Positions 3,636 through 38,119 of a DNA stretch of 46,448 nucleotides are shown in pieces (the first letter of the stretch is position 1; every line of letters starts with the position of its first letter). Location: positions 1 to 46,448 of the IMG/VR virus record IMGVR_UViG_3300047564_003831; one strand, given 5' to 3'. The notes under the pieces are model-generated. The model had not been told where the DNA came from. It saw only the letters and a list, made by a program, of their open reading frames with translations, and made no database searches. The DNA comes from a virus. Made by a program: the position numbers and the translations under genes.

Positions 3636-3661
3636 GTGTCTTACCTTGAGACGGTAATGTT

Positions 3662-3689: not shown

Positions 3690-3718
3690 GTAACAATTAC
3701 AACAATCGGGAATAAAGA

Positions 3719-18808: not shown

Positions 18809-20365
18809 TTAAAATTCAATAACTAGTTTGATGTCTTCAATCTGGTCATTTGATCTATTTACTGCCTTTCTATTCTCAACATAGATGACTTTTCCACTGT
18901 GCTTTTTGACTTCTGGAGTTGCGTATCCATTTGAGAAATTAATACCAAAAAACCCACCACTCGCATTTGTATCTGGTGTCAATGTAGTGTTGCTAGTTGA
19001 ACCAACAATTGCGTTTGAACCACTGAATGGAACAAACTTATACTGTCTAACTCCAGTCTGGAGAGAAGCAGTATATTCATTTTGATAGTATCTTAATACC
19101 TTAGTCACACTATCCCAGTGGATAACTCTTCCTACAGCACCAGTTGACAATTGAGTAATAATTTCACCTGGAGTAAAGTTTGTGCTGGTTGCAGTCGGGA
19201 ACTTAATTGCGTAACATGCAGTAGCAGTGGTAGTTGTCAAATCAACTCCAGATGGTGTTGTTGGATCTGAGAGTAGACCAAATCTTCTAAATTGAGAGTC
19301 AACTGGAATATCTCCATCTCCATCTAGAAAGTCTAGACTCTTATTTACCATTACACGATATCCACCTAGTTCCAATGAACTATCAGAACCATGACCGCCT
19401 GGGGGAGAAATTATCGCCTCAACATTTGCAGTGGTCCCAAGAGTTAATGAGTTAGTATTTCTGTTGATTGCGTCATTTGCAGTCAGATATACTTCAGTCA
19501 GTAGAACTTTTGCGTTGGTATATCCAGAACCTACTCTATCAAGTTCAACAGTATCAATTGAACCAGCATTACTTCCAGTATTTGGAACTACTATTCTAGC
19601 AACTGCAGGATCTCCACTATCACCAACAATTGGAGCATAGTAAACATTTGGTGTTAGATTTGAACCTCTATTGGTAATCAATAGTTGGTCAATTGATCCA
19701 TTAACTGCGGCTGCTTTAACAGCGATATCATCTTTGATGGGAATAAAATCACTAGAAACAAATTTGATGTAATCGGAAATATTGATGGTATACATATACT
19801 TCCAACGATATCCATCAAGTGGTGACTCAATAATAGAAGTTGAGTTTCCAGTTGGTTCAACAGTTGATGGTCTGCCGTTTGGATAGGTTGGACTCTGACC
19901 ATTATAGATGCACTTATAAACTTGATAGTTACTATTCATTACATAAAATTGTGCATCATATAATTTTGATTGACCATTAACAGACAACTTATCTGGAGTA
20001 TAATCATTCTTATACATGTCGTAAATAACTTGCGACTTCCAGATTCTTTTTCTGATTACTTTTGAAACATCACTTCTAGTTACTCTTTTCACCGCAATCA
20101 TATCATCATAGACTTCATTCATATCATTAAATGAGTCATAAGGATCTGGTGGATCAAATTCAGTTACATCTGTTTGACCAGCGTATCTTTCAAGAGACCA
20201 TTCTTGTGGTCTCCCAACAAACAAATAAATTTTGCTTCTGTAGTTATAAGCCGCTGTAGTATTATCTGCTACGGGATTGTCTAGGTTATCATATGGTTCT
20301 TCTAGGGATTCAATAAACTGCTCTGCAGCAAACACCCTAAAATTATCAGCAACTAGTGATGGCAT
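18809..20365 (-). CDS. 8: Baseplate wedge subunit gp8
   Basis: 518 residues. The N-terminus (LVADNFRVFAAEQFIESL), KIYLFVGRPQEWSLERYA and the central DGYRWKYMYTINISDYIKF block match cyanophage gp8 proteins, which are longer than T4 gp8 (334). A GxGY module (VELDRVGSGYTNAKVLLTE, near residue 280) is present, and the C-terminus (KVIYVENRKAVNRS..DIKLVIEF) is a family-like ending. gp8 is part of the wedge that joins gp7 and gp10 in T4. It lies between the gp7-position gene and the DUF4815-type gene as expected. Confidence 0.88.
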   Translation of the reverse strand: MPSLVADNFRVFAAEQFIESLEEPYDNLDNPVADNTTAAYNYRSKIYLFVGRPQEWSLERYAGQTDVTEFDPPDPYDSFNDMNEVYDDMIAVKRVTRSDVSKVIRKRIWKSQVIYDMYKNDYTPDKLSVNGQSKLYDAQFYVMNSNYQVYKCIYNGQSPTYPNGRPSTVEPTGNSTSIIESPLDGYRWKYMYTINISDYIKFVSSDFIPIKDDIAVKAAAVNGSIDQLLITNRGSNLTPNVYYAPIVGDSGDPAVARIVVPNTGSNAGSIDTVELDRVGSGYTNAKVLLTEVYLTANDAINRNTNSLTLGTTANVEAIISPPGGHGSDSSLELGGYRVMVNKSLDFLDGDGDIPVDSQFRRFGLLSDPTTPSGVDLTTTTATACYAIKFPTATSTNFTPGEIITQLSTGAVGRVIHWDSVTKVLRYYQNEYTASLQTGVRQYKFVPFSGSNAIVGSTSNTTLTPDTNASGGFFGINFSNGYATPEVKKHSGKVIYVENRKAVNRSNDQIEDIKLVIEF

Positions 20366-20393: not shown

Positions 20394-20401
20394 TATTTAT
20401 T
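20394..20401 (-). promoter_or_regulatory. Late promoter AATAAATA overlapping the giant gene stop
   Basis: The TAA stop of the giant gene forms part of TAATAAATA, 29 bases before the gp8 start. Confidence 0.55.
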
Positions 20402-23400
20402 AAAGATATCCGTCAGAATATACTCTGTCATTTTGTTTGTGACCAATTGCACAGGTACTAGTGTTAACCCAGCGAGAAATTCTGATGTCATCTAAAATTC
20501 TATAATCAAGAGAACTAAAGTCAACTACACTCACGGTACTACCCTCATAGATTGCATCAAATGTTATAGTATTTCCAGAAACTGTATATGACTTAATAGG
20601 TTCCTGTACAACACCATCTACAATAACCATAATTGATTCTGCGGATGTAACGGAAGAAGACAATGTGTAAGTATTATCTTCTGTCATAACAAATGGTGTA
20701 AGTACATTAACTGGTGAAGTTATATTGTAAATCAACACTTGTTGAGTAGAAATATTAACAGGTTGATCAAAAATTACAGTATTGTTAACGGTATTAATAC
20801 CCCAAGAATCTGACATTTGAACAACACCATCAATGACTACCATTAAATATTGTGAAGATAAAACTCCATTGTATTGAATGGTTGTCTGATTTACCTGAGT
20901 GAAATCGGAAGAAATATCTTGGAAATCATCTGCAGAATTGAAGTGCGTGATAAAGATGTTATCTTCCTGGAGATTTACAGCAGTTGCAAAATAAATCTTT
21001 CTGCAATCACTATCCATTTCAGATGTGTAGTAATCAACACCAGGAGTTTGATGAACACCGTTTCTGAAGACTTGTAAGTGACTATCAGAATGTACTGTAA
21101 TGAACGTAGCGTTCTTTACAAGTGGGAACTCACTTGGGTTTAGACCATAATTTAATATGTTTCTGGTAACTCCAATTAGTTCAGTTTCTGTCTTGTCTGT
21201 GTATTCAATTGCTTCAGAGTTTATAAATGCACGGAAACTATCATAACCAATTCCAGGATTTCTGATGATTAGATCCGTAATAGTACCAAATGCATCCAGT
21301 ACTGGTTCTAGGACTGCACCAGAACCACCGCCACCAATTACACTGACCTGAATATATCTTTCATCATAACCAATACCACCACTGACAATCTCAAGTTTTC
21401 TTAAGTACCCATCAATGACATATGGAATGAATGATGCACCACTTCCAGTTGGAGAATCTATTTGAATTTGTAGTGCATTTGTTGGGAAGATATCAGTTTT
21501 AATTACTGGAATTACTTCAGCAGTATCTGAGATATCAGATGTCAGTGCAGTCGCTTTTGATATATTTGAAGTTGTTAGTTGAGACTTTCTGTAAGCAAAT
21601 GCTCTTACGGCAGGAACAACAACCTGAGGCATGTAGATATTATATCCAGGGAATTGGATATCAACTTTATTAAATTCTAATTCGCCGTACTCAATAAAAT
21701 CACGAATGTCTCTTTGTAGGAATAGATTGGTTGTGAATGCGGCGTGGCCACCTGACTGATAATACTTAAATGTAACTTTCTTGCAATCACTACATGAATC
21801 CAAAGCCGCTTCAACTATATTCTGAAGATTTTCTGCTTGTGGAACATTTGAAGAATTGCCAGTAGTATCATCCAATGATTGAGTAAACAATATTGGTGAT
21901 AGCATTCCACTCAAGTAACTTGTTAGAGATACCTGATCATATCTTTCTGGATTTGTAATTGCAGAACCATATCTACTTCTCAACTTGGCACACGTTACAT
22001 TACCATCAACAGTTTCTTCAGAGAATACACATCTTGTAGTTAGATCAATTGGACCTGGAGCATTCGCAATTACACCATCAACTTCATGCATAGTGTTCAA
22101 TTTCTGAACGAGACTACCACCCTGAGAATGACCGAATGTGTAAATTCTATCAATAGTCTTTCCGTACCCACCGTTGATTAGTGCTGCACCAAGTGCTTCC
22201 TTGACCCACAAGAGAGCAGCTTCTGCATATTCAAGATTATCTCCAAAGAAGAATTGAGTGAGATCAAGACCAGGGAACTGATCAGCAGCTGCTTGTGGAG
22301 TCCATCCAGGAATTGCATCTTGTGGATATGCAACAGAGAAAATAATTTTGTTTCCTAGGTTTAATCCATTTGGATCCGTTGCAATGTTCAAGAAGTTGGT
22401 TGCAGCATCTAGTGGAGTAATACCATCAAATACGATTGTTCCATGATATAGAACAATGACATCTAGGGAAACATCACTGATATTAGGAATATACAATGCA
22501 CCTCTAACTGGTAGGTTGTTGTGTGTCACCGCAATTGGTATAGCAGTTCCACTATAAGAACCAGTAGAAACTAGTGGTGAACTGGTCAATACTTTTCCAC
22601 CAGCATATTGATCAATATTAGCGATACCGATTGCAGTTGCACCAGAACCTTTGGTAACTAGTGCTGTTGGATAAACATATCCAGTTCCACCAGAAGTTGT
22701 GATTAGATCAACAACTTTACCATTTTCATATACTGCACTTCCAGAGAATCCGCTGAATAGGTTCTGTGAGACTGGTGTAGTCTTCATTACGGTTGGGGAC
22801 AAGATTTCACTAACTGTTCTTTCAAATACAAATGTTCTCTCCTCGTCAATTGAACAATCAAGATGTACAGTATCTCCAACTTTGACTTGATATAGTCTGT
22901 TGTCAACATGAACATCATCTGCAGTACCTCTATAGTCTAGAAGAACTATCTTTGAAGTATTTTGTGCAACTGGTTGATTGAAGATTAGTTTATTATTATC
23001 AATGTAGTAATCAAAAACTGGACTTTGGATATAACCATCTTTAATTACAAGAATTTGATTCTCATGATTTCTTGGTCTTTCAATTTCAGCATTTGGATAA
23101 TAAGGTTGTCCCGATAGAGTGAGATCAAATACTTTATTTGATCCGTTAAATCCAGAAGTCAATGTTTGTAGTTTGATCATTGAACCAACTGCTTTAATCA
23201 TGATAATGTCTTCTGGAGTTGGTGCGACATCAAATACAATTTGCGATCTGATATCACCAGAAAGAATATAATCAACCTTAGGATCTAATACTCTGTTGTT
23301 TTTAATTACGAGAATACTAGTTTCATCTGGGATAGTATCATTTTCAACCGTTGCAAGTGGAACAAAGTTCTCTTCGGTTAAGAATAGATTAAATCTATCT

Positions 23401-26400
23401 CTTGTTGAATCGTATGGAGTATGAATTTCATCAAGTAACTTAACAATACCAGTAAATTCAATAGCGAATACATCAACGGAAGGAACCTGTAGGGTTATTA
23501 CATTATTTGCAATTGTATAGTCTTTAGTTGGTAACATCCAGTTTCCATTTGCAAAAACGTATAGGTTATCATAGTCAAGAATTTGACTTGTGATCTGGAA
23601 CTGAGTTGATGATACTGGGTTTAGAGAAGCAGAAATATTTTCATACATTCTGACAAAGAACGTATTGTGTTCTTTTTCCAGAGGAGACACAAAATTAATC
23701 CACTTTGCGAGAGAGACACCATTTCTAACTTCAAGATCCACAGTATAATCTACATCTGGATTTTGAATAATTCCGTCTCTACTCGTTAGAATATCTGCAG
23801 AAGAAAGTGCTCTAATATTAAGACCCTTATAAAGGAGTTTGAATTTGGTTCTTACTCCATCTGGGCAATTCTCAAGATCATCAATGAATGTTAGATTTAC
23901 ATACTTGACTATGAATGGAGTCGCACCATCATCCACAAACGCGCCGCCAAGGAACGAAAGAATATTTCCATTAATTACAAAATCTCTTCCATGGAAATTT
24001 GGAACTCCATTCAAGTACAATATAATTCTTGACTTCTCATCTTCAGTTAGTACATAAGGTAGAGTATAAGTATCTTCTGTGGTGCAGATAGTAAATGGAA
24101 TTGGAGTTATAGGAATGATCTCTTCAGAACTATGAGTATACAAAATGAATAGATCAGTGTTTCTCTCAAGATTTGAAGTGAATGTGATATAACCAGATCC
24201 AGCGGTGTAATCATCTACTGGATTCTGTAGAACAGAATCTCTGAGTACAAATAGATCAATTAAATTACTTGGTGTAAATGTAGTGTAGTTCTGTTGTAAT
24301 CTGAAAGTTGGTGTTGTTTCATCTTCCGATAAGTAATCAATGAGTCTTAGATTTGATCCACGGAAATCATAAACCTTGACCACTTCATATTCATCAGAAA
24401 CAACTGTAATAGTTGAATTAACTATGCTGTAAGTGTTTGGACCCTGAACAACACCACCAACCTGAACTAGTGCTCTTTCATTATCAAGACCAGAAATAGT
24501 TTGATAATTGTGAGTTAGACGAATTGTTGCATTCTCTCCATTAATGGATACCAATGAATTGAGACTATCAATTAACTCATAACTTGTCTTTGATGCATCA
24601 AATACATGCAATTCATTGATATTAACACCATACTCAGTAATAATTTCAAATAGTTTTACACCATCATTAGTAATTACATAATCTTGATCTGGTTGTTGAA
24701 CAACCGATCCATATACGGTAAATGCTTTATCTGCGGATACTAGTTCTGAATAACTATTTCTAATGATAAATTGTGTGTGAATGAGTCCACTATTATCAAT
24801 GTACTCATCATATAGATCAGATAATACATCAACCAATCTGATTTGACAAGATGAAATATTGATAATTTCTGTCTTTGTAAAATCAATAGTTGGTGAGTTT
24901 ACTCTTAGAATAGTTCCAGTTGTATCATAACTTGTTACAGGAGACTGAACAACACCTTCAATATTGATCACCAATGATTCTGTTGATGGAGAAATAGTCC
25001 AGTAGTTATCAGTCATTACAAATTCTGTATATTCACTGGTTTGATCTCTCAATGTTCCCAGATCGTCAAGTCTAATGTATCCACTTAAAGTAGTATCAAA
25101 TGCTTCAATGAGATCCCAACCTCTTTCTGGTTGATCATTGATCTGCAATATATTATTTGAAACTGAATAGAAATTTGGATCTTGAATGATTCCATTGATT
25201 GACAATAGAATGCTTTCTGCATCCATTGTTTGGTAATTTTGGAGAGTTCTGATGTACTTAGAATCTCCAATCTCCCATGCAGATTCAATGTGATCAAGAA
25301 CTCTTAGATTTACCGAACTTGCATCAATTACTACGAGAGGAATTCCTGAGGTTAGAACGTCGTTCAAGAAAACTAGTTCAGAACCCTCAACCGAGTAAGA
25401 TTCTCCTGCTTTTTGTACAATTCCGTCTACACAAACAAATAGTGATTCAGCAGAAACTGGGAAATGTGGTTTTCTACCATTCTTAAGTTGATATCTTGTG
25501 ACAGTAGAAGAGGTTATAATTTGATTTACAACGATTGGACAATTTTGAATTTGATATACATTTACCGTTCCGTTTGGAGTTTCGGAGAATACTAACTGTT
25601 GAGTGGTGGAATTATAAGTCCATGAGTCACGAACTTGCATGATTCCAGCAACAAAAACTATGATTGGTTCAACACCAATATTTCCAGTGTACTGATATAC
25701 TGTTGGGGAAACTGCAGTGAAATCCGAAGTTAGATTTTCAAATCCACTTGTAATATCAAAGTTCTGTACAAAAACTTGCTCGTTTGAGTTTACTGGAGTT
25801 GTGAAAGTAATTCTCGTACCACCGTTAGTAGTTTGAATTGTGTAATCAGTTCCTTGATACTGATAAACACCATTTCTGTATACTAAAGAGTTTGAAGCTG
25901 TATTTGTAGCGATTGTTTGATTATTCTTAGTAAGTGGGAAAGTTGTTGTAGCACCATCAAATAGATATGGACTATCAATTCTATAAGAATTTGGTATATG
26001 ATAGAAAGCAAGACCACTAACACTTACATTTTCAGTAAATGTAAATACATTACCATTTTTGGTATATGTGTCTTTATTTTGTAGAATACCTTCTCTGAAG
26101 ATTAATACCTCACCGACACTAATATCAATTGCTCCAGTGTAAGTGATTACTTGAGCACTTGTTTCAACTAATCCAGTTTGAATCTTGACAAATTCACCTT
26201 CTGCAAAAGATGTTACAAAGATTGACTCTGTAGCAACTGGTGCGTCACTAAAGACTATTCTTGGACCACCATTAACATTGCTGGTAGTAAAACCAGTCTG
26301 TTGGAAAACACCGTTTCTGTGAACTTGAATATTTCCACTTACACCTTCTGTCCAGATATACGATGAATTATTCAAAGTTAGTGGGAATGCAGTTGTACTT

Positions 26401-29400
26401 CCATCCACCTCAAAGTATTTCTCAATAAACCCAGATGGTGTGGTAGACTGAGAATAAACTGTTTTATCAACTGCAAATATTCTAACAGAAGAATTCAATA
26501 CAAACGATTCAGTGAACTGAAGTTTATCAGTATTGTAATCATAAGTATATGAATTTCTGTTCTGAAGAATACCTTGCTTGTAAATTAATAGGGTTTTTGA
26601 AGAATCTAATGTAGTGATATTACCAAGTGTTGTTACATTATCTTGTACGAAATCATTGGTGATATCTTCAAAGTTTGAAGCATCAGATACTTGACAGATA
26701 AAAATATCATCTGTGGATGTAGGAGCGGTAGTAAATGTTATAAACTGACTACCCTTGGAATTGGTTGAAATATTGTAATCAAGAGTTGAGTACTGATATA
26801 CTCCATTTCTGTAAACTAAAATATTGTTAGCAGATGGGATATTTACTGGATTGTAGAAGTAGGTAAGTGGGAAAGTAGGATTTACACCATCAAGAACGTA
26901 GAAACGATCCAACTCTCTAACCTGATTACCAATAATGTAAATTCTCAGTGTATTTGGTTGAGTAATTGGTTCTACAAATGTAAGAACATTATTTACTTGA
27001 TTATAAGAATATGCACCAGGGAGTTGTACAATACCATCCTTAAAGATTAATAAGAAATCTGAACCTACTGTTGATGGGTATTGGAACTCTGTTGGTGAAA
27101 TTTGAGTAAATACGTTGGTTGCATCAGTAAAATCACTTGTGCTGTTGAAATTTGTAATGAAGATATTATCAGTTGGTGTTGGCGCACTAGTAAATGTTAT
27201 TCTTGGACCACCATTTGTAGTTTCAACAGAATAATCAGTTCCCGAATATTGATATAAACCATTTCTATAAACTTGAATGTGGTTGACAGAATATGGAGTT
27301 CTTGATACTACATCTTTAGTGATTGGGAATGTAGTTTGAATACCATCAAATTTATAGAATTTATCTAGTTGACCCGCAGAATTTCTAACCACAAAAATTC
27401 TAACTGCAGAGGTCAAATCAAATTCCTCATCAAACGTAACTGTTTGAGTTCCGTAGTTAACCGACCAACCATCAGAAACCAAAACTCCAGAACTATAAAT
27501 TAATAGTTCATCTGTACTAGTAATCAGTTCGTTTGATTGATTTTGAATGCTTGTTGGTGATACCTGTACGAAATCAATGGTCTTATTTACAAAATTTACA
27601 GATGTATTAAATTCAGTTACAAAAATATCATCGGTCTGTAATGGAGCCGTAGTAAATGTGATTCTTGGACCACCATTTGTAGTTTGAAGAATATAATCTT
27701 GTCCAGAGTACTGATAAACTCCATTTCTATAAACTTGAATATGATCTACAGAAGTTGGTGTAGTTGAAATATAATTTCTAGTTAGGGCAAAAGTCGTTTC
27801 AACTCCATTGAAGTATCTTAGAGGATCAATCTTAAGATTTTGATTCAGTCCATCATACGAATAGAAAACAGTAACCTCATCAGTTTCAACTGGAGCTTCT
27901 GAGAATACAATACTAGATCCATCTAATGTATAACTATCAAGTCCTGGAACTTCTCTGATATCAAGTGGTGTACCGAGTCTAAAATCAATTCCTGGTTTTT
28001 GATATACACCATTTCTGACTACAAACAGATTATGTACATTAATTGGATAGAAATTAATTCCATCTAGAGTTAGTGGGAAATCTTTTCTCTCACCATCAAA
28101 ACAGTAGAAATCATCTAGAACAACATTTTTTGTTGGTAGTGGGAGTAATTGTCTATTAAACCAAAGCAATTCTGTAGAATCAGTAAATTGTGGCGCATCA
28201 TTAAAGGTTATCTTGTTTGTAGTAACTGATTGATGTCTATTATCGGGTCTTTGAAGAACACCGTTTCTGATAGCAAACACATCACCAACATTTTTAGTAT
28301 ACTGAGGTACTCCTCTATCAGACAAGTTAAATCTTCTTCTAATTCCATCTTGTTGAACATCTAGTCTATCAAGATTAGCAGAACCAATACCAACAGTATC
28401 TGCAGTATATGTACTATTGAAATCTATGATAGTGCATTCAGATCCCGCAGCATATGTGGTGTTGAATGCGATTGTGTCACCATTAATTGAATACTCATCT
28501 TGATCAAGAGCATTGTTGTCAACATAAACCATTAGAGAATCTTCACCCTTTACTGGGGTATATGGATTTCCGTTGATTCTAGTTAATTTAAATGCTCTAT
28601 CAGTACCATTAAAATCAAATTTGTCAAGAACTTCTATAAAACTCCTTGAATACTCTGGTGTAGTATATGTAAATTTGGTATTAAAACCATATAAAGTGGT
28701 ATTATCTGGATCTGCACTAATTACACCATCAAGATATTCCTTTCTTTGTTCATATAGAGATGTTGGTGTTCTTACCGCACTGGAGTTGATAAACTGAGTA
28801 AAGTTCTTTGTATCACAACGCCAGGTTCCAGTGATTCTATTGTTTAATAGATCTTGGATTGAAACCGATTCACACTCAACCTCTTCATCAACGTACCATC
28901 CAAAAACGTTTGAAAGTTCAATTGGTTCACTGAAAGTTACTGTATTGTTAGTTACCGTATAGTCAGTGAGTAATTGAGTTTGATGAACGCCACTATAGAA
29001 AATCAATAGTTGACATGCATCAGATACCGAATAATTGATTGTGTAAGTAGTTCCAGTTGATGGACCACTGAATAACAGTCTATTGAATGACTCACTAGTT
29101 ATGCCAAACAATCTTGAGTTATACTTGGTTGTGTCAAGGAATTTTACATAGTTTTCATTATCATTTACTTGTAGGTTGATTGGATTCTGTACAGATCCAG
29201 AAATTGAAATGATAGTGTTATCTAAGAAGTTAGCACCAATATCATATGCAATTCCATTGACTGATGGATAGTAAACAGACTCCGAACCTTCTAGGTCGGC
29301 AGAATCAAATATAGTAACACCTGTGGATAGTTTATATTGAACTAATTCATCTGCGGGATCCAAATCAAATTTTGGTATTAATGACCCTACAGCTGGAACA

Positions 29401-32400
29401 ATCAAAGGATCACCAAACTCATCATAGTACTCAAAAGAAGTTTCATAACTAACTTCTGGTTCCTGCATGATTCCATTCCAGAACGCAAGAGATCTTGATG
29501 TTGCAGATTCAACACCAAAGGAGAACTCTGTAGGAACGGTAATAATTAACTCACCAATTATAAATCTAATATCATTTCTTAATGCAACCTTCAGTGAATA
29601 TTCTGTCTTTTCAACAACTTCACCGATCGCCTCGGATATGGAACCAAAAATATAGTCACCAATCTCAAAATCTTCAACATTCGGAATTGATATGACTTGA
29701 TCTTTGCATGGTGCGAGTTTTACTTTGAGTAAAATGTCGTTTACAAGATTTGTTGTAAAAATTACACTAGTCTTAAATACGTCTTCTGGACGATCAAAGA
29801 AGAATTTTCTTCTTTCAATAATCTTCTTACCGAATAGATTATTTCCAGATGGGTGAGTATTTACTTCAACTTGTTCTCTCCACTCTTTCGTATCTCTTGA
29901 TGATGAAAGAATATACGACCAATCTTGGTAAACATTACTATCTGTAAGTTTTTGCAAGAATTCACTGGAGTTTCCATTGATGTCATTTCTAGAACTCTCT
30001 AGAGTTACATATGAATTTGATTTTGCATATGCTTTTGGTCTGCGAATACTAATGATTCTTCCATACTTCTTACCATCATCGGTATAAACTAGATCATTTT
30101 CTTTGAAAGAACCTACACTCTCATCAAACTCCAGGGTTGAACTTAGATCATCAAAGTTAACTGTTTGTGCAGTAACTTGTACTGGGAATACCTGAGAATT
30201 GATGTTACCCTTAAGAATTTGTCCTGGTTGGAGTTGTTTTCTTCTAATTTTTGCTCTCAATACGCAACCAGTTCCTGTGGAACTTACAATTTCAATAGTA
30301 GGAATAGTTTCAAAGTTAGTTCCACCGTCAATAACATCAACACTAATAACTATACCTAGTTGAACATTAATTTTTAATTGGGCAAGATTTTCCTGACCAT
30401 TAACTAGAACTTTTAGTTGATCTTTATATTCTTGACCTCTTTCAACAACTTCAACTTCATAAATTTCAAAGTTATTAATAATTTTAGCAGTTGCAGGTAG
30501 ATTTAGATAATGGTTAATCGTATCGTTTGAAGTAAAACCTCCGCCAGGAGTTAAGTATCCAACGTTTCTGATTTGACCAATGGTTGACGAGTTTGCCTGG
30601 ATTATTGCTCCAGTTCCAGTTCCTCCATTTATATCAGATACAACTTCAACTGCTGGTAGTTTTCTATAATTATATCCTCTGTTTGATACAGAGATCTCTG
30701 CAACACCACCAGAAGCACCTCTGGATTTTGCCGTATAGAATAGATTTAGTGTTTCAAATTCTGTGGGATCTAGTAAAACAGGAACTGTGAAAGAATTTGT
30801 ATCTATATCAATTTCTTGTATGCGATATTCACCGAAATATTCATTACTAGTAGTGATTTCATAGATATAATTACCGATATGTAGATAAAGAATATTTGGT
30901 AGTTTTGATGCATCAAAGATAATACTTGCTGGATCTGCAGATCCTGGTTCTTCAATTACAAAGAACTCATTATTTCTGTCAATGTCTAACGTAAATGTAT
31001 ATGATTGATTTGGAATATTGAACTTATACTTATACTTTGAGTTCAACGAGAGTGTATAGAACTTCTTGTCGGAATACTTATTTACAGCATCTTCATTGAA
31101 CAATACCGATAAGTTATCAGATTTTTTAAGTTTATCACTCGCAGGAAGAAAACTGGAATCAAACAGATTTATTGTTACTGGATTTAGAGGAGTTGTATAA
31201 TCAAAATAGACATAATCTCCAACAGCTAGTCCATTACGACCATTTGTAAATACAGTGACTGTTTTTCTATCAACTGAAACAAGTACATTGGAAATGGCTT
31301 TTCCAGAAACTTTGGATACGAATGCACCAAAACCAGAACCAAATGTTAGAGTATTGTCAACTATTACAGAGTCTCCAACTCTATAACCTCGTCCAGGATT
31401 TTCAATAATGACACTATCTACAGATCCTGGTGTTAATGAAGTACTTCTGAGGATGGTTCTGTCGTAATTTGTATTCTCTGTTGGATAGAAAACATTCTCT
31501 GGTAAACCATCAAATTTAAAGACTCCTGGAATTTCAAATCCAACAACTTCTTTGTCAAATGTTCTAGCGAATGCTTTCGGAATCTTATCATTTGTTCTAC
31601 ATCCCTTGTTGACGTAGAAATCTGGTTCGGAAGAATATGTGTCTCCGATATAATATGGGAATCCGTTATAATCAACGGAAGTTTGAGAAATTATTTCGTT
31701 TGTAACAGAATCAAATGACTGTGTGGTTGCAAAATAGCAGTATCTACCATTTGGATATTCTGGTGTAACACAGAACCTTCCATTATGGATATCCAAATCA
31801 TCATCAAGTCCAGTAACAAACTCATAGTCTTCAATGAATGATCCAATTGGATAATCTTCAATAGAAGGTCCACCTTCTCTGTTCACATAATAAGTAGTTC
31901 CATTTACAGTATAGGAAACACTTCCAGCAGTTTGAGTTGTGTTATACTTTAACTTATATCTTGACTTTATTTCAGATAAAGGAGAAGTTCCATCAAATCT
32001 TACAGAATGACACATTTTTCCATATACTGGAACTCCATCATATGAAACACAAATTACTGGAGAGTGTACATTCTTTGAAAGTACATTATCAATATCTTGT
32101 TGAGTTTGATATGATAATGTTTCATTTGGATATTGAACCTGAAGATATCCATATCTTTGTTCAATCGTATACTTCGCAAGTAGTTTATCTGATGTAGATA
32201 ATAGTACGTATTGTCTGTCATCTAGAGATGGTGGTAAGTCAGTCTCTGGATCTATTGTCTGCAACTTGAGTACATTATTTGAATCTGGATTTGAAGTATC
32301 ATAATCCGACTCATTATAAACATATCCACCAAATGAATCAACTCTACCAATTTTGTTTAATCTTTCAACCATGTTGAAAGTCCACTCATTAAGTCTAGCA

Positions 32401-35400
32401 GAAATAATTCCGCCAGATCCAGAAGGTACTATCTCAATAGTTGGTGGTAATGTATAACCAGACCCTGGATTTATGATTGTAAATCCAGTAACTTCACCAT
32501 TCTCTATATTTGCTTCAACTACCGCATCTTTACCATTTCCGATAATCTTTACACTTGGTTTTGTATAGTAATTTTTACCTCTCTTAACCAATACAACAGA
32601 AGCAACCTTGCCGGAAGCTACGTAAACAGAAGCTTCTGCACCACTACCAGAATCAAGTGTAACCTTTGGAGCAATATCAAAAGTTTCTGTAATTGTTTCA
32701 AATGAATCAATCAAGAAGAAATTATCTTTGTAGTAATTGGTGAATGAGGTTAACTGACCTCTCATTTCAACAATTTTTACTCCATTGATGCTATATGGAA
32801 TAACAATATCTGGAGATTCAAGTTTACCACCACCGATAATTCTTATGGTAGGAGCTTCTACATATCCATTACCAGAATTTCTGACAATAATATTATCAAT
32901 TGCTCCAGTATCTTCATTATAACTCAAATCAAATTCTGCTTGCTGGAAGTCAGCTGGATTAACTACATCTCCAATCAATCCGAATGAAAAATTACCAAGA
33001 TCATTGATGTATTGAAGATCAATTGCATTTGATCCAATAATTGAATCACTTTCAGATGTATGCAGTGAATAAACTATTTCAGTACTTGATACTTCACTTA
33101 CTTTGCGAATATAGTACTGATTGTTATTTGTTAGTTTTGGAATAACATTCTGTAGAACATTATTGTAAGTTACCTTATCTGCAGTTTCAAATTTTGGATC
33201 ATCCTGAGAATATGTAATTGTAAATGTGTCGTTTAAGAGATTAATCGCAGACTTTAATACAGTGGATACTTTTCTTGGATTGTTATTTACTACTTCAATT
33301 ACTGGTTTTGTGGTGAATCCAACCAACTCTCCAGATGTTTGCCAAAACTCTGCTAGTTTGTTAAAATCAATATAAGTGAATTTTGAAGATAGTCTGATTA
33401 AAGATCTTTGGTTTGTTGCTTCAATTTGTGTTCCATTCTTTGTGATAACAAATGAAGGGAATTTATTGAAATCAAACCCACCGAATTGATTGATTGGGAC
33501 TTCATAATTACCACCATCACCAATTACAAAATTATTAATATAACCATAGCTTATGGTTGAACCCTTATACGAGTTTATCTGAATTGCATCTGCATTAATA
33601 CCAATTGCTTGCTTCGTTGGTACTTTATTTGTAATTACTCTTGCAGTATCTAGTAGAGTGGATTTTTTATATCTTGAAATTAACTTTTGATTGGTGAATG
33701 ATACTTTTTTAAGATCTGCATCATTCAATGTTACTTGAGAAAGATCTACAATTTCATTCCACCAACGAGGAATAGCACTAGTTGGTACATATACATACTC
33801 ATCATAATCGTATGTTGAGTTAAATCCAACAAAAGATTTGTGTGATGGTAGTCTGTTATCGGTTACAATATTTCCAGTTCTATTGAAATTTGAAGAAAGA
33901 ACAATAGCAAGTCTGTCAGAAATTTCTTTTGTTGTAAAATAATAGTTCTGAGTATTAGGTGACTTTAGATCAGCAAAAGTATATTGTTGTTTTGTGTGTA
34001 ACGAACCACCCTCAACTATGACAACATCTCCAGTCATAGCTAAAAGTTCAAATACAACATCTTCAATTAGATTACTTGAAGATTTGACATATGGAGCATG
34101 TTGGAACAGATTTGAACCTTCGTATTGCCAACTAACTGGTTCTGGATTTCCGTCAGCATAAGATCCATCTCTCTCAATACCAGAGGTATGCTTAGGACCG
34201 TTTAGTGTTCCAGTGATACCAGAGTTTACTGCTCTGTATAGATTATTTTTGTAATATCTAAATTCTCCCTCTTTGATTTCTTCATTGATCTGCCACTTGA
34301 CGGTATATCTTTGTCTACCCCATGATAGAACTCTTACACCAGCGTCAATAGTAGTTGAAGTTCCACTGTAATAGAACGAACAATCAAAAAACTGATTGAT
34401 TGATCTATGTACATAGTGGATTAACACACCATTTACAGAAAGGATACCATTTGTTACTGGGAATCTGCTAGCATCATCAACCGTGATTACAAAATTGTTT
34501 CCGAGATTTGTCTCAGATCTAATAATTTTTGTGCTTGGTGGGAGATAAAGATAATTGATATCAGAATTTGATGAAACCTCAAACTCATAAGTTTCATCTT
34601 GTAGAGAAATGATATTATCAACTTCAATATTTACACCATTGACTCCAAATAATGGATCTGGATCTTGGACAATATCAAGTACAGTTGGTAATTCACCATA
34701 AACAGACAATTGACCACTTATTAGTTTGCACTTTATAACTTTCTTCTCAACCAATAGTGAGTTGGAAGTCTTAAATGTGTATTCTCTTGGGAATTCAATA
34801 TTCTGCTCTTCTGGAATTGTTTCAACTCCACTTCTGATTGAAGTTGTTCCGATGAATGCTCTAGAGATAGTTGCTCTTGGTGATTCTCCACCAACACCGA
34901 TGATTTCATCATCAGAAGAAAAATAACCAACAACATCATATAGAACTAGTTCATTTCTATACGCATCCCAATAATCAACTCTTCCATAACCAGTACCAGA
35001 TGTATTGTAAATTCTTTGATCTTGGAAGAAAGATCTTACACGAACTCTTGATTTGATAGGTCCAATATAACCCTCCCCAGAATCAACTACCTCAATAGAA
35101 GTAATAGATCCGTTATTGTCAATACCAGTTACTTTTATAACGGCAGTATCGTTTGGTCTCAATCCGTTTTGAATTTCACCAGAACCACTACCAAGTACAT
35201 CAATAATTGGAGAGTTGATGAACTCATTCGTAGATGGATCTCTACGGTTATCATATCCAGATCCACCAGAGACAATTTCTGGTGCTGGTTCTTTAGGAAT
35301 ATACTTATTGTAATTATTGATCTTTAACTTCGCGCCCGATCCTCTTGGATTGAGTAAAATATTATACTTTTTATCATTGAATAGAATCTTAAAGATGATT

Positions 35401-36020
35401 CTGTGACCATTCAGACTTCCCTTTGCTGAATAGAAGGACTTGATATTTTTTAAGAACTGAGTATAGTCAAGATCCTCAACAACATTTTCAGTGATTAATG
35501 GAGCAATTTCAGACTTGATTCTGCTGAAAAACTCATTTGCATATGCAAAAGAAATGTTGACTACAGATGACCCATTTCTATGTTCTTCTGCTTTGCTACT
35601 AGTTAATACAACTTCCGATCTAGGAACACTTTTTAATACAAGAGCTGAAGTCCCCCTTACACAGTCAACAAATTTGTTTCCATCAATTCTCTTATAAAAA
35701 ATGATTTCATTGTTGATTTGAATGTAACCATTTTCAAATGGGAATCCAACAGTACTTTCAACCTCAATAGTAGTTGAGTCAGAGAGTAAGTTTCCAATCA
35801 ATTTGGTCTCTTCAACCAGTTGATTTGGTCTATAGTAACCAATATTATAATAATCAATTAAATTTGTAGCAATATCAAGTGGTTGATACTTATTTTCTAG
35901 AGATTCGTAATATGAAGAAAGAAACTCTAAAAATTTAGGATTATTTTGTTGAACAAAAAAAGGAAACTGATTCTCAATTAAATTTGAGATATTGGACTTC
36001 TTCTCTTCTAGGTATCTCAT
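20400..36020 (-). CDS. Giant gp7-position baseplate protein with an embedded alpha/beta hydrolase
   Basis: About 5,206 residues from the ATG at 36020, which overlaps the gp6 stop as ATGA (an upstream TTG start is less likely). The N-terminus (NQFPFFVQQNNPKFLEFLSS) is typical of large cyanophage wedge proteins. By position between gp6 and gp8 it corresponds to T4 gp7, but it is about five times longer. Residues about 240-1900 contain several GxGY beta modules. About 2580-4360 carry many repeats of the NGVYQ..TDY..ITF type. A hydrolase-like domain covers about 4500-4780: LYHG oxyanion-type strand, GHSQGG with Ser4632, Asp4717 in SLDDTT, His4759 in GGHAAF. It is flanked by more GxGY modules. Repeats resume to the end (CAIGHKQNDRVYSDGYL). 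Substrate unknown; an esterase or depolymerase acting on cell-surface polymer is an inference. Confidence 0.88.
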   Translation of the reverse strand: MRYLEEKKSNISNLIENQFPFFVQQNNPKFLEFLSSYYESLENKYQPLDIATNLIDYYNIGYYRPNQLVEETKLIGNLLSDSTTIEVESTVGFPFENGYIQINNEIIFYKRIDGNKFVDCVRGTSALVLKSVPRSEVVLTSSKAEEHRNGSSVVNISFAYANEFFSRIKSEIAPLITENVVEDLDYTQFLKNIKSFYSAKGSLNGHRIIFKILFNDKKYNILLNPRGSGAKLKINNYNKYIPKEPAPEIVSGGSGYDNRRDPSTNEFINSPIIDVLGSGSGEIQNGLRPNDTAVIKVTGIDNNGSITSIEVVDSGEGYIGPIKSRVRVRSFFQDQRIYNTSGTGYGRVDYWDAYRNELVLYDVVGYFSSDDEIIGVGGESPRATISRAFIGTTSIRSGVETIPEEQNIEFPREYTFKTSNSLLVEKKVIKCKLISGQLSVYGELPTVLDIVQDPDPLFGVNGVNIEVDNIISLQDETYEFEVSSNSDINYLYLPPSTKIIRSETNLGNNFVITVDDASRFPVTNGILSVNGVLIHYVHRSINQFFDCSFYYSGTSTTIDAGVRVLSWGRQRYTVKWQINEEIKEGEFRYYKNNLYRAVNSGITGTLNGPKHTSGIERDGSYADGNPEPVSWQYEGSNLFQHAPYVKSSSNLIEDVVFELLAMTGDVVIVEGGSLHTKQQYTFADLKSPNTQNYYFTTKEISDRLAIVLSSNFNRTGNIVTDNRLPSHKSFVGFNSTYDYDEYVYVPTSAIPRWWNEIVDLSQVTLNDADLKKVSFTNQKLISRYKKSTLLDTARVITNKVPTKQAIGINADAIQINSYKGSTISYGYINNFVIGDGGNYEVPINQFGGFDFNKFPSFVITKNGTQIEATNQRSLIRLSSKFTYIDFNKLAEFWQTSGELVGFTTKPVIEVVNNNPRKVSTVLKSAINLLNDTFTITYSQDDPKFETADKVTYNNVLQNVIPKLTNNNQYYIRKVSEVSSTEIVYSLHTSESDSIIGSNAIDLQYINDLGNFSFGLIGDVVNPADFQQAEFDLSYNEDTGAIDNIIVRNSGNGYVEAPTIRIIGGGKLESPDIVIPYSINGVKIVEMRGQLTSFTNYYKDNFFLIDSFETITETFDIAPKVTLDSGSGAEASVYVASGKVASVVLVKRGKNYYTKPSVKIIGNGKDAVVEANIENGEVTGFTIINPGSGYTLPPTIEIVPSGSGGIISARLNEWTFNMVERLNKIGRVDSFGGYVYNESDYDTSNPDSNNVLKLQTIDPETDLPPSLDDRQYVLLSTSDKLLAKYTIEQRYGYLQVQYPNETLSYQTQQDIDNVLSKNVHSPVICVSYDGVPVYGKMCHSVRFDGTSPLSEIKSRYKLKYNTTQTAGSVSYTVNGTTYYVNREGGPSIEDYPIGSFIEDYEFVTGLDDDLDIHNGRFCVTPEYPNGRYCYFATTQSFDSVTNEIISQTSVDYNGFPYYIGDTYSSEPDFYVNKGCRTNDKIPKAFARTFDKEVVGFEIPGVFKFDGLPENVFYPTENTNYDRTILRSTSLTPGSVDSVIIENPGRGYRVGDSVIVDNTLTFGSGFGAFVSKVSGKAISNVLVSVDRKTVTVFTNGRNGLAVGDYVYFDYTTPLNPVTINLFDSSFLPASDKLKKSDNLSVLFNEDAVNKYSDKKFYTLSLNSKYKYKFNIPNQSYTFTLDIDRNNEFFVIEEPGSADPASIIFDASKLPNILYLHIGNYIYEITTSNEYFGEYRIQEIDIDTNSFTVPVLLDPTEFETLNLFYTAKSRGASGGVAEISVSNRGYNYRKLPAVEVVSDINGGTGTGAIIQANSSTIGQIRNVGYLTPGGGFTSNDTINHYLNLPATAKIINNFEIYEVEVVERGQEYKDQLKVLVNGQENLAQLKINVQLGIVISVDVIDGGTNFETIPTIEIVSSTGTGCVLRAKIRRKQLQPGQILKGNINSQVFPVQVTAQTVNFDDLSSTLEFDESVGSFKENDLVYTDDGKKYGRIISIRRPKAYAKSNSYVTLESSRNDINGNSSEFLQKLTDSNVYQDWSYILSSSRDTKEWREQVEVNTHPSGNNLFGKKIIERRKFFFDRPEDVFKTSVIFTTNLVNDILLKVKLAPCKDQVISIPNVEDFEIGDYIFGSISEAIGEVVEKTEYSLKVALRNDIRFIIGELIITVPTEFSFGVESATSRSLAFWNGIMQEPEVSYETSFEYYDEFGDPLIVPAVGSLIPKFDLDPADELVQYKLSTGVTIFDSADLEGSESVYYPSVNGIAYDIGANFLDNTIISISGSVQNPINLQVNDNENYVKFLDTTKYNSRLFGITSESFNRLLFSGPSTGTTYTINYSVSDACQLLIFYSGVHQTQLLTDYTVTNNTVTFSEPIELSNVFGWYVDEEVECESVSIQDLLNNRITGTWRCDTKNFTQFINSSAVRTPTSLYEQRKEYLDGVISADPDNTTLYGFNTKFTYTTPEYSRSFIEVLDKFDFNGTDRAFKLTRINGNPYTPVKGEDSLMVYVDNNALDQDEYSINGDTIAFNTTYAAGSECTIIDFNSTYTADTVGIGSANLDRLDVQQDGIRRRFNLSDRGVPQYTKNVGDVFAIRNGVLQRPDNRHQSVTTNKITFNDAPQFTDSTELLWFNRQLLPLPTKNVVLDDFYCFDGERKDFPLTLDGINFYPINVHNLFVVRNGVYQKPGIDFRLGTPLDIREVPGLDSYTLDGSSIVFSEAPVETDEVTVFYSYDGLNQNLKIDPLRYFNGVETTFALTRNYISTTPTSVDHIQVYRNGVYQYSGQDYILQTTNGGPRITFTTAPLQTDDIFVTEFNTSVNFVNKTIDFVQVSPTSIQNQSNELITSTDELLIYSSGVLVSDGWSVNYGTQTVTFDEEFDLTSAVRIFVVRNSAGQLDKFYKFDGIQTTFPITKDVVSRTPYSVNHIQVYRNGLYQYSGTDYSVETTNGGPRITFTSAPTPTDNIFITNFNSTSDFTDATNVFTQISPTEFQYPSTVGSDFLLIFKDGIVQLPGAYSYNQVNNVLTFVEPITQPNTLRIYIIGNQVRELDRFYVLDGVNPTFPLTYFYNPVNIPSANNILVYRNGVYQYSTLDYNISTNSKGSQFITFTTAPTSTDDIFICQVSDASNFEDITNDFVQDNVTTLGNITTLDSSKTLLIYKQGILQNRNSYTYDYNTDKLQFTESFVLNSSVRIFAVDKTVYSQSTTPSGFIEKYFEVDGSTTAFPLTLNNSSYIWTEGVSGNIQVHRNGVFQQTGFTTSNVNGGPRIVFSDAPVATESIFVTSFAEGEFVKIQTGLVETSAQVITYTGAIDISVGEVLIFREGILQNKDTYTKNGNVFTFTENVSVSGLAFYHIPNSYRIDSPYLFDGATTTFPLTKNNQTIATNTASNSLVYRNGVYQYQGTDYTIQTTNGGTRITFTTPVNSNEQVFVQNFDITSGFENLTSDFTAVSPTVYQYTGNIGVEPIIVFVAGIMQVRDSWTYNSTTQQLVFSETPNGTVNVYQIQNCPIVVNQIITSSTVTRYQLKNGRKPHFPVSAESLFVCVDGIVQKAGESYSVEGSELVFLNDVLTSGIPLVVIDASSVNLRVLDHIESAWEIGDSKYIRTLQNYQTMDAESILLSINGIIQDPNFYSVSNNILQINDQPERGWDLIEAFDTTLSGYIRLDDLGTLRDQTSEYTEFVMTDNYWTISPSTESLVINIEGVVQSPVTSYDTTGTILRVNSPTIDFTKTEIINISSCQIRLVDVLSDLYDEYIDNSGLIHTQFIIRNSYSELVSADKAFTVYGSVVQQPDQDYVITNDGVKLFEIITEYGVNINELHVFDASKTSYELIDSLNSLVSINGENATIRLTHNYQTISGLDNERALVQVGGVVQGPNTYSIVNSTITVVSDEYEVVKVYDFRGSNLRLIDYLSEDETTPTFRLQQNYTTFTPSNLIDLFVLRDSVLQNPVDDYTAGSGYITFTSNLERNTDLFILYTHSSEEIIPITPIPFTICTTEDTYTLPYVLTEDEKSRIILYLNGVPNFHGRDFVINGNILSFLGGAFVDDGATPFIVKYVNLTFIDDLENCPDGVRTKFKLLYKGLNIRALSSADILTSRDGIIQNPDVDYTVDLEVRNGVSLAKWINFVSPLEKEHNTFFVRMYENISASLNPVSSTQFQITSQILDYDNLYVFANGNWMLPTKDYTIANNVITLQVPSVDVFAIEFTGIVKLLDEIHTPYDSTRDRFNLFLTEENFVPLATVENDTIPDETSILVIKNNRVLDPKVDYILSGDIRSQIVFDVAPTPEDIIMIKAVGSMIKLQTLTSGFNGSNKVFDLTLSGQPYYPNAEIERPRNHENQILVIKDGYIQSPVFDYYIDNNKLIFNQPVAQNTSKIVLLDYRGTADDVHVDNRLYQVKVGDTVHLDCSIDEERTFVFERTVSEILSPTVMKTTPVSQNLFSGFSGSAVYENGKVVDLITTSGGTGYVYPTALVTKGSGATAIGIANIDQYAGGKVLTSSPLVSTGSYSGTAIPIAVTHNNLPVRGALYIPNISDVSLDVIVLYHGTIVFDGITPLDAATNFLNIATDPNGLNLGNKIIFSVAYPQDAIPGWTPQAAADQFPGLDLTQFFFGDNLEYAEAALLWVKEALGAALINGGYGKTIDRIYTFGHSQGGSLVQKLNTMHEVDGVIANAPGPIDLTTRCVFSEETVDGNVTCAKLRSRYGSAITNPERYDQVSLTSYLSGMLSPILFTQSLDDTTGNSSNVPQAENLQNIVEAALDSCSDCKKVTFKYYQSGGHAAFTTNLFLQRDIRDFIEYGELEFNKVDIQFPGYNIYMPQVVVPAVRAFAYRKSQLTTSNISKATALTSDISDTAEVIPVIKTDIFPTNALQIQIDSPTGSGASFIPYVIDGYLRKLEIVSGGIGYDERYIQVSVIGGGGSGAVLEPVLDAFGTITDLIIRNPGIGYDSFRAFINSEAIEYTDKTETELIGVTRNILNYGLNPSEFPLVKNATFITVHSDSHLQVFRNGVHQTPGVDYYTSEMDSDCRKIYFATAVNLQEDNIFITHFNSADDFQDISSDFTQVNQTTIQYNGVLSSQYLMVVIDGVVQMSDSWGINTVNNTVIFDQPVNISTQQVLIYNITSPVNVLTPFVMTEDNTYTLSSSVTSAESIMVIVDGVVQEPIKSYTVSGNTITFDAIYEGSTVSVVDFSSLDYRILDDIRISRWVNTSTCAIGHKQNDRVYSDGYL
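21660..22510 (-). other. Alpha/beta-hydrolase (esterase-like) domain within the giant protein
   Basis: Minus-strand residues about 4500-4785. The order strand-HG, long helical segment (AEAALLWVKEALGAALINGG), IYTFGHSQGGSLVQKL, LFTQSLDD, then QSGGHAAF reproduces the nucleophile-acid-histidine order of the alpha/beta-hydrolase fold. The Ser codon is at 22125-22127, the first Asp codon at 21870-21872 and the His codon at 21744-21746. Cys pairs (CVFSEETVDGNVTC and CSDC) may form disulfides, as in secreted esterases. The layout resembles PHB depolymerase or feruloyl esterase type enzymes. Confidence 0.75.
25500..28290 (-). repeat. Tandem NGVYQ/TDY repeats in the giant gene
   Basis: Successive units recur about every 440-500 bases (the NGVYQ-type phrase lies near 25860, 26305, 26800, 27255 and 27717), with a shorter unit near 28000. 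Each contains a half with VYRNGVYQYSGTDY and GGPRITFT, then a half with a GI(L/V)Q phrase and a strand ending VRIF. Degenerate single halves continue to about 22950 and reappear near 20600-21050. Confidence 0.8.
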
Positions 36021-38119
36021 GAGCAAGCTGTTGGATCGGTTTCTGGTGTGAAATTATCTATTGTGCGGATGTCATTTGGATCAGTTCCGCCGGTAGGATC
36101 ATTTATGGTTGGATCTATGATTTGTGGTTCTTCAATAACTGGGAAAGTTACTGGTAGTCCACCTCCAATTCCTGGATCTGGTGGTGGAATCACAAATGTA
36201 TTTCCTTCTGGGTCTGATACTACTAGATCATTTTCAGCAGGAGGTGCTGAAGAAGTAGGATCTCCTGTAGTTGGAACTGATAATATCTCATCAACTGGTA
36301 ATGTATTATTATCAGGATTTAGTGAGTCATCAAGATCAGTATTGATAATGATGTCATCAACTACTAGGTTTGGAGTAGTTCCAGGACCAGAAATAATTTC
36401 TACTACATCTGGTATAACTGTAATATTTATTGGAGTCTCTTGGCACATTTCCACTGTAAAATTGAGTTCTCCAGTTGCAGGATTTACTGTGCCCACCTTA
36501 CTTTTGAGAAGTCTTCCTCCTATTGAATATAGGTTAAGATCACCTGAATAATCACAATTTCCCATCGCTCCAATGAACACTGGAGTCACATAACCAACAG
36601 CACAGAATGGTTCAGATAGAACATAAAATTCGGACTTTGTACTGGTTTTTAACTTTGTGAAAAAGTCTAGTTCATACTTTGCAAGAACACCAGTCATTGG
36701 TTGCATGGATTTCTGCAAGTAAATAAGTACGTTTACAAATTTAATAGAATTTTCAAGATCTTTAATTCTGCAAACTAGATCAGAATCTGAATACAATCCA
36801 CCAAACGAATTGAAATCAGGATCCTTAACGTAATTTAAAATTTCTCCATTTACAAGAGAAGTAATATCAGAAATAGTTTTTCTAGTTGTAGTTTGATCAT
36901 ATACAACGATAGGTCTGATACGGATATCAAGTACGTCTGGATCTACAATTTTTGCAGTGATTGAACCAACCTGATACTTCTTAAGTTCTCTGGAGATTCT
37001 ATTTTTTTCACTTTGACTTGTTCTTTCTCCAACAATTGGTTTAATTGCAATATATACTTCTCCAAATCTAGGTGGTTTTAATGATTCTCCACCAATAACA
37101 TTGACCAAATCTGCGTTAGAATATATTTGTCTTACAATTGCCTCGTAGTCAGATAGTGTGACCGCTCTTTCTTGTGAAGCATAGTATCTTGGAGCAGCAT
37201 ATTTGATTGATCTGATGCTCTCAAATTCAGAACCTCCATCAGAAAACTCAGAAACCAATTCATATCTGATATTAGTTAATCCTATTAAATTTTCATTATT
37301 ATTAATTCTACCGAAAACAGAACCAACAAAATCAAATATTCTGATACTATTTGACTCTGCACCCGAAGAAACAACGTATTGTAGTCTGATTACCTCACCA
37401 TCTCTCAATCTTCTACCAAATACATCATCTCCGAAGATAACTTCGTACTTTTGATCCTGTACTTCTTCAACGAAGAAAATTTTACTTTCTGCAGTAACAT
37501 CAACAATTGATGTCTTTCTTACATATTCGTCTTCAATATTAGTTGTTGGATCAGAGATTACAAACGCTCTGATACTTTCTGCGTCAACAAAACTATTTGG
37601 AATGAAGAATCTTTGGTGTTCGTTTGAAGTATCTACCGTGTATGTAATTGAAAAGTCAGAACCTTCTACCAATTCAACGTTAGGGAATACTACGCTGTTC
37701 TTTCCTCTAACATCTAACTCTAAAGGATCTCTAAGGATAAACTTAAAATTCTTACCATTAGCAGATGCAGCTAACAGAGTTCCTGGTGCTACCTTAATAC
37801 TATCGTAATTTTGAGTATTTTCAACAATCAGATTAAAATATACTCTTGAAGAAGTATATGAACTTGGATTATAACCGAGTCTTTTTGCAATTGAAACAAT
37901 ATTATCACGTAAAACTGCGGTATCTAAGTTTAGTTCATTTGCCGCCATATTAACGTTGTATGACGTATACAACGTATTATAAGCTAAAATATCAACCAGC
38001 ATAGACAGGTTTGATCCTTCAAAGTCATAATCTTTGAAGTCTGTCTTTGTTTTAATAAAAGTTTTTATTGAACTCTTTAACTGCTCAAATTCTAAAGCAG
38101 ATACTACTGGTAATTCCAT
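36017..38119 (-). CDS. 6: Baseplate wedge subunit gp6 with acidic Pro-rich tail
   Basis: 700 residues (T4 gp6 is 660). The N-terminus (FEQLKSSIKTFIKTKTDFKD, GSNLSMLVDILAYNTLYTSY, NMAANELNLDTAVLRDNIVS) and RYYASQERAVTLSDYEAIVR near residue 315 are hallmark gp6/J-like baseplate features. The family forms the wedge ring around the hub. The last 130 residues are unusual: low complexity, rich in Asp, Pro, Thr and Gly (for example PPPDPGIGGGLP), ending in Cys-Ser. The start lies five bases after the gp25 stop. Confidence 0.94.
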   Translation of the reverse strand: MELPVVSALEFEQLKSSIKTFIKTKTDFKDYDFEGSNLSMLVDILAYNTLYTSYNVNMAANELNLDTAVLRDNIVSIAKRLGYNPSSYTSSRVYFNLIVENTQNYDSIKVAPGTLLAASANGKNFKFILRDPLELDVRGKNSVVFPNVELVEGSDFSITYTVDTSNEHQRFFIPNSFVDAESIRAFVISDPTTNIEDEYVRKTSIVDVTAESKIFFVEEVQDQKYEVIFGDDVFGRRLRDGEVIRLQYVVSSGAESNSIRIFDFVGSVFGRINNNENLIGLTNIRYELVSEFSDGGSEFESIRSIKYAAPRYYASQERAVTLSDYEAIVRQIYSNADLVNVIGGESLKPPRFGEVYIAIKPIVGERTSQSEKNRISRELKKYQVGSITAKIVDPDVLDIRIRPIVVYDQTTTRKTISDITSLVNGEILNYVKDPDFNSFGGLYSDSDLVCRIKDLENSIKFVNVLIYLQKSMQPMTGVLAKYELDFFTKLKTSTKSEFYVLSEPFCAVGYVTPVFIGAMGNCDYSGDLNLYSIGGRLLKSKVGTVNPATGELNFTVEMCQETPINITVIPDVVEIISGPGTTPNLVVDDIIINTDLDDSLNPDNNTLPVDEILSVPTTGDPTSSAPPAENDLVVSDPEGNTFVIPPPDPGIGGGLPVTFPVIEEPQIIDPTINDPTGGTDPNDIRTIDNFTPETDPTACS

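Follow-up and report, generated by a model that had tools for sequence, protein, structure and literature searches.

Enzymes on phage tails and promiscuous display domains are both known. Ig-like domains are a display module of the second kind, found on different structural proteins of the virion; theirs is a binding fold, not an enzyme, and to our knowledge the virion-borne copies are not permuted. Judged by the title of a 2010 work by Pickard cited in PMC7029224, from which alone the likeness is drawn, an acetyl-esterase domain is said to be common to diverse Vi phages, and we know of no permuted forms of it. The Penicillium PHB depolymerase 2d80, a permuted α/β-hydrolase, is a natural precedent for permutation; it is a single fungal enzyme and no mobile cassette. 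PsEst3 and Est1E, which have a fold like that of the domain described here (VIA Z 19.5 and 18.9), are cellular enzymes with no insertion in a carrier, and among the matches listed solved esterases are 10–20% identical to it. Some α/β-hydrolases have permuted β1/β2 strands (PMC11878206, the accessible sections of which mention 2d80 and not its permutation). A literature search of titles and abstract openings, with subscription papers mostly outside its scope, returned no account of the domain in cyanophage virion proteins, which is not proof of absence, and no permuted hydrolase in a phage.

The domain lies in a 46,448-base virus record, the whole of which we call the window. Its nearest relatives in sequence outside phages are secreted or lipoprotein-like α/β-hydrolases, many of them from Bacteroidota (30–38% identity), which have the same triad, Cys pair and GDN and NAPGP motifs as the phage domain. 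The bacterial enzymes inspected, 29 of 80, are stand-alone and of conventional order. Cyanophage S-SCSM1 gp235 (QFG06499.1, 'tail fiber protein') is 37% identical to the window domain and keeps the triad and the Cys pair, but differs from the window cassette in having its own short gene and in being permuted, at a point other than that of the common permuted form described below.

The minus strand of the window holds a run of T4-like structural genes, the longest frame of which (36026..20400) has its start given as TTG, with an ATG two codons further in. The T4-like gene order gp25-gp6-gp7-gp8 is seen around its 5208-residue product:

38125..38565, minus strand, gp25-like baseplate wedge subunit (PF04965, E 2.1e-12)
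36017..38119, minus strand, gp6-like baseplate wedge subunit (PF21379, E 1.5e-17; phrog_219, E 6.9e-154)
20400..36026, minus strand, gp7-position baseplate wedge protein, the carrier of the cassette (5208 residues; phrog_2885 matches; gp6 and gp8 flanks)
18809..20365, minus strand, gp8-like baseplate wedge subunit (PF09215, E 2.1e-17; phrog_438, E 1.6e-156)

Since gp25 and gp6 lie on one side and gp8 on the other, and since phrog_2885 (baseplate wedge) matches the N-terminal and middle parts of the protein (E 2e-60 and 1.2e-93 for the two parts), gp7 is a fair name for it, and the gp7 position given in the original prediction holds. The features of its C-terminal region are as follows; L162 is a viral contig with a homologous gp7 that lacks the hydrolase domain.

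22668..22688, minus strand, GTGYVYP of the β module before the cassette (module also found before the empty site in L162)
21663..22589, minus strand, hydrolase cassette, residues 4480–4788 (downstream edge between 4780 and 4788)
22440..22451, minus strand, LYHG, oxyanion-side motif (His4528 and Gly4529 kept in 58/59 aligned domains)
22116..22133, minus strand, nucleophile elbow GHSQGG (Ser4634 at 22125–22127)
21990..22031, minus strand, pair Cys4666 to Cys4679 (invariant, 59/59)
21861..21878, minus strand, SLDDTT motif, in frame, which holds the catalytic acid
21867..21869, minus strand, catalytic acid Asp4720 (59/59 aligned domains)
21783..21794, minus strand, CxxC, Cys4745 and Cys4748 (kept in part of the phage family only)
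21735..21752, minus strand, GGHAAF motif, in frame, which holds His4761
21744..21746, minus strand, catalytic His4761 (59/59 aligned domains)
21366..21377, minus strand, first GIGY of the β module after the cassette (aligned in L162)
21243..21254, minus strand, second GIGY of the same module (aligned in L162)

An empty site was sought in viral contigs because the C-terminal 408 residues of gp7 matched nothing in the phage collection at a threshold of 1e-5. Four loci were found: L161, the contig of the window's relative L001, which has the cassette, and L162–L164, whose homologous gp7 is without the hydrolase domain. The latter differ from each other at 3–7 positions over 17.2 kb and are thus in effect one virus. 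At the protein level, window residues 4250–4479 align to L162 2374–2649 (57% identity) and residues 4781–5208 to L162 2647–3075 (71% identity), so that both flanks meet on adjoining residues. The DNA of both flanks is 77% identical to L162; the downstream match starts at residue 4789 and the upstream match ends at about residue 4419, so the upstream edge rests on the protein alignment. The flank alignments therefore put the cassette at residues 4480 to 4780–4788. By these alignments the hydrolase domain is shown to be an inserted cassette with an empty site in homologous gp7, which bears out the earlier suggestion that it had been inserted as a unit. Comparison of 63 bases at one cassette edge with 54 at the other revealed no shared direct repeat of at least 7 bases. 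A foreign base composition was also considered and rejected: the insert has a GC content of 0.39 and the remainder of gp7 one of 0.34, but the value for the insert falls inside the range of 164 same-size windows (0.306–0.401) and gives no signal.

An AlphaFold2 model of residues 4475–4800, built with 15 aligned relatives (eleven of them partial), has pLDDT 67.6 and pTM 0.75 and shows the strand-helix order of an α/β-hydrolase. The predicted nucleophile turn (strand 150–159, Ser160, helix 161–172) places the serine between β5 and helix C. Model residues 1–14, 186–228 and 310–326 are below pLDDT 50, the second of these stretches holding both the Cys pair and the point at which the common permuted form, described below, is cut. 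Foldseek matched the model to 906 PDB chains at E ≤ 1e-3, with esterases and peptidases in the top rows and acylaminoacyl peptidases leading. VIA-align, which re-examined Foldseek's own best 1000 and is not an independent search, gave PsEst3 (7v8w) as the best match (Z 19.5, 228 residues, rmsd 3.2). Model and structural search thus agree on the hydrolase core that had been predicted, and a fold without such a core, named beforehand as an outcome that would count against the prediction, was returned neither by AlphaFold2 nor by Foldseek or VIA-align. We regard the α/β-hydrolase fold predicted by the model as firm. The substrate class is not, because lipases, feruloyl esterases, carboxylesterases and acylaminoacyl peptidases lie within 1.2 Z units among the 50 VIA-align matches listed.

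In sequence-profile searches the window domain passes no Pfam gathering cut-off: the best score is for Tannase (PF07519, 19.9 bits against a cut-off of 29.8), Peptidase_S9 (PF00326) reaches 14.9 bits (cut-off 22.6, E 0.019) and BD-FAE (PF20434) gives no row at E ≤ 1. There was no row near the cut-off in NCBIfam, no PHROG match at E ≤ 0.01 and a single row, at E 0.36, in a sequence search of the PDB. A search of the window's own record with Abhydrolase_1 found nothing.

Conservation was assessed in an alignment of 59 domains, 28 bacterial and 31 from phages (29 viral contig domains, the window and S-SCSM1). The phage set is without L002 (cut by its contig end), L052 and L055 and without the copies or near copies L005, L010, L011, L019, L022 and L041; bacterial L103, whose frame crosses masked bases, is in neither the tree nor the 59-row count. 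The Ser, Asp, His triad and the Cys pair are invariant in 59/59 domains, and the loss of Ser or His in homologues, named in advance as a finding against an intact enzyme, was not seen. All motifs listed in the original prediction are present and in frame on the minus strand of the ORF 36026..20400. The triad residues it named are real, but its numbers (4632, 4717 and 4759) are those of the first residues of the motifs and are 2–3 off. SLDDTT does hold the acid, which is the invariant Asp4720 and not residue 4717; the neighbouring residue 4719 varies. Both predicted Cys clusters exist and only one is general. Cys4666 and Cys4679 probably form a disulphide, whereas the CxxC at 4745/4748 is kept in 4/11 conventional phage rows compared and was seen in none of the permuted rows inspected; a CxxC is present in 29/29 bacterial frames inspected.

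A comparison of the window with its relative L001 (96%) gives dN/dS 0.05 for the domain, from 15.7 non-synonymous and 74.3 synonymous differences. The ratio is 0.06 for the 600 codons upstream and 0.136 for the 408 downstream, so the domain is under a strong constraint that is not peculiar to it. That it is no chance pattern is confirmed by its fold match, by its homologues and by purifying selection.

Four scans of viral contigs (counted by name, repeat fetches removed) found the domain in 38 contigs besides the window. Thirteen have the conventional order, including L002, which is cut by the contig end and is classed as conventional only since no permuted half precedes the domain; 22 have a common permuted form and three are S-SCSM1-like. 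Permuted order, in two forms, is thus found in 25/38 viral contigs and in S-SCSM1. In the common form the Asp/His half is placed before the Ser half; in the S-SCSM1 gp235 type the His comes first and the cut is near β8. Among 50,697 phage records only S-SCSM1 matches (one phage, two records), so most phages do without the domain. Neither the permuted forms nor the occurrence of the domain in unrelated virion proteins, described below, was part of the original prediction, and they are the more surprising facts about it.

With the window and L024 domains as blastp queries, conventional domains were collinear (11/11), and common-type permuted domains gave two segments in swapped order with one shared place (17/17 tested). 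The match to the window query ends at 208–215 and resumes at 220–222, that to the L024 query ends at 212–216 and resumes at 221–223. S-SCSM1-type domains gave one segment only with the window as query; with L024 all three were swapped at another place, near L024 residue 267. In two of these three, L003 and L006, L024 residues 267–276 are matched at both ends. We infer that such a doubled match is what permutation via tandem duplication would be expected to leave. The common cut (∼ 214–222) falls between β6 (177–181) and β7 (238–243), in a low-confidence stretch of the conventional model. A review (PMC11878206) describes the helix that joins these two strands as the one that varies most, with the majority of caps and lids placed between β6 and that helix.

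Both halves of the permuted forms align and the triad is kept. A model of the permuted form is poor (pLDDT 46.6) and gave no PDB match in Foldseek at E ≤ 1e-3, although most of the 50 matches listed have titles that name esterases, lipases or serine peptidases. The reading of these domains as true permutants that would keep the α/β-hydrolase fold therefore rests on sequence. The gp235 gene (L003:17737-18843) encodes a free-standing permuted hydrolase, shares one base with the end of gp234 (L003:16082-17737) and is labelled '(virion protein)' in GenBank. The authors of the S-SCSM1 study report 45 virion proteins by mass spectrometry (PMC9602691), and we counted 48 'virion protein' labels in the record; because labels outnumber detected proteins, it is likely, though unconfirmed, that gp235 itself was detected in the virion.

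The carriers span at least five kinds of virion protein; gp7, a nozzle protein and tail fibres of several types are among them. A gp7 (phrog_2885) is the carrier in L012, with a permuted cassette at residue ∼ 1007 as against 4480 in the window, and the L016 carrier is gp7-like in its first part and tail-fibre-like beside the cassette. Tail fibres carry the domain in L024 (conventional) and L009 (permuted), both phrog_529, in L015 and L045 (phrog_9729) and in L068 (short tail fibre, phrog_4924). The L070 carrier matches phrog_4924 more weakly, also touches head family phrog_613 and has Ig-like domains; the Ig-like domain of the L056 carrier is below cut-off. In L018 the carrier is a virion protein of phrog_30655, with a Collar match that stops 13 residues before the cassette. 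The L013 carrier is a nozzle protein (PF25675 in its downstream part) whose phrog_457 match is interrupted by the cassette, ending at 321 and starting again at 324. Two permuted-hydrolase carriers, L017 (6898-8400) and L078 (1045-3009), contain a subtilase (Peptidase_S8) domain as well; a single virion protein may thus combine two serine hydrolases. The L039 carrier had no PHROG match. By eye, the carriers L002:3105-4259 and L039:1040-3046 are alike (GLYxSWGDI stretch); L039 holds the permuted form and the truncated L002 reads as conventional.

Homologous fibres can be compared with and without the cassette. Those of L024 and L009 share 80% identity on one side of the L024 cassette and 67% on the other. 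At the site of that cassette L009 has 12 residues; L009 has its own permuted cassette at 1673-1965, absent from L024. The same site of homologous fibres holds the conventional form in L024 and the permuted form in L030, and L069 and L018 likewise have a conventional and a permuted form at about one place. When the joined L024 flanks were searched against phage records, 94/341 covered at least 80% of the query, and among the matches listed 12/12 did so in one piece, that is, without the cassette. For the joined flanks of the L018 fibre, 2/5 matching records cover 80% of the query; for those of the L015 fibre none of 24 does, hence no clean empty site for the latter.

Relatives were sought in one scan of bacterial and archaeal genomes; 132 were confirmed and 80 of them kept (L081–L160). 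Many are Bacteroidota by title, and no cyanobacteria were seen among the 80 titles. All 29 that were inspected are short, stand-alone and of conventional order, and 24 of them have, by eye, a hydrophobic start ending in Cys. In a Pfam search of six, L082 passed BD-FAE (PF20434, 29.3 bits against 26.8) and three passed Abhydrolase_3. In the tree, 28/28 bacterial rows are on one side of a branch with 100/100 support, apart from the phage forms. On the phage side of this midpoint-rooted tree six conventional forms, including the window, branch first, followed by L056; S-SCSM1-type domains are placed among those of the common permuted type. In the best tree L039 lies outside the other permuted forms (support starred; the bootstrap had not settled), and an AU test did not reject one clade of all permuted forms (p 0.123). 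Because the root is a midpoint, the direction of transfer is one that we infer: a secreted-type bacterial α/β-hydrolase domain would have entered tailed phages and become a cassette that recombination carries from one virion protein to another, be it gp7, a long or short tail fibre or a nozzle protein.

We consider it probable, with moderate confidence, that the domain is such a recombination-spread virion esterase cassette of bacterial origin, acting on surface ester groups. It would be an active serine esterase displayed on the virion, predicted to hydrolyse ester groups, most likely acyl, on host-surface or exuded polysaccharide during adsorption; alternatively, it may free virions from unproductive binding. 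The common permuted form appears to open the chain between β6 and β7, the usual cap place, which would bring the entry and exit of the carrier chain close to the active site, away from the far edge. With its termini so moved, the same enzyme could fit into a loop and be pointed differently. The carriers are so different as to suggest a benefit independent of one exact place in the virion. More tentatively, we propose a mobile catalytic display module of marine phages, found in unrelated virion proteins of myo- and podoviruses in three topologies and perhaps selected because termini moved to the cap site allow it to nest in loops and be re-aimed relative to its carrier.

An active hydrolase need not act on glycans. 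A phospholipase or lipase helping the tail to breach the outer membrane would be well served by baseplate and nozzle carriers, proteins that act near the membrane, and the lipases TTL and Lip_vut4 are among the fold neighbours. The neighbours also include feruloyl, acetyl-xylan and carbohydrate esterases, the fold does not fix the substrate, and the one of six bacterial relatives to pass a specific cut-off, L082, does so for a feruloyl-esterase family, though three of six pass the general Abhydrolase_3; we think a lipid substrate unlikely. Less probable again is a peptidase or amidase akin to prolyl oligopeptidases, with surface protein or virion proteins as its substrate. Acylaminoacyl peptidases head the Foldseek matches, a weak Peptidase_S9 match is present and the L017 and L078 carriers have a subtilase besides. 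The S9 score is, however, below its cut-off, and peptidases of the acylaminoacyl and prolyl-oligopeptidase type carry a β-propeller, for which a cassette of ∼ 309 residues is too small.

If catalysis were irrelevant, the domain might serve for adhesion or decoration, like the Ig-like domains of virions, which have a like spread over unrelated virion proteins and occur in the L070 carrier and, below cut-off, in that of L056. A mere scaffold has no need of the triad kept in every aligned domain, and the low dN/dS argues the same way, though upstream gp7 is equally constrained; we regard this explanation as very doubtful. That errors of assembly or reading frame produced the permuted order is close to refuted: the permuted copies are metagenome-derived except for S-SCSM1 gp235, but the common form recurs in 22 contigs with different carriers and one cut place in the 17 tested, the domains lie in uninterrupted frames, and the complete genome of an isolate has the second form as a gene of its own.

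A virion esterase cassette of this kind, a catalytic domain in at least five kinds of virion protein and in three orders, would be a natural experiment in insertion and circular permutation, as it allows direct comparison of closely related carriers that have or lack the cassette and of one site filled by either topology. It is also a candidate for surface chemistry in marine virus–host contact that can be assayed with the cultured isolate S-SCSM1.

Other proteins of the window were noted in passing. Upstream of gp25, at 39377-42682, lies a 1101-residue protein for which neither Pfam nor PHROG gave a match at E ≤ 0.01. The 285-residue protein at 3976-4833 contains DUF5661 and DUF6321, both of them domains of unknown function. 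After gp8, at 12396-18770, is a 2124-residue protein with DUF4815, in the place where S-SCSM1 has a long VrlC protein. Within gp7 itself, 24837-27779 (residues ∼ 2750–3730) holds a series of related modules, five overlapping stretches of which are matched by one C-terminal piece of the L162 gp7.
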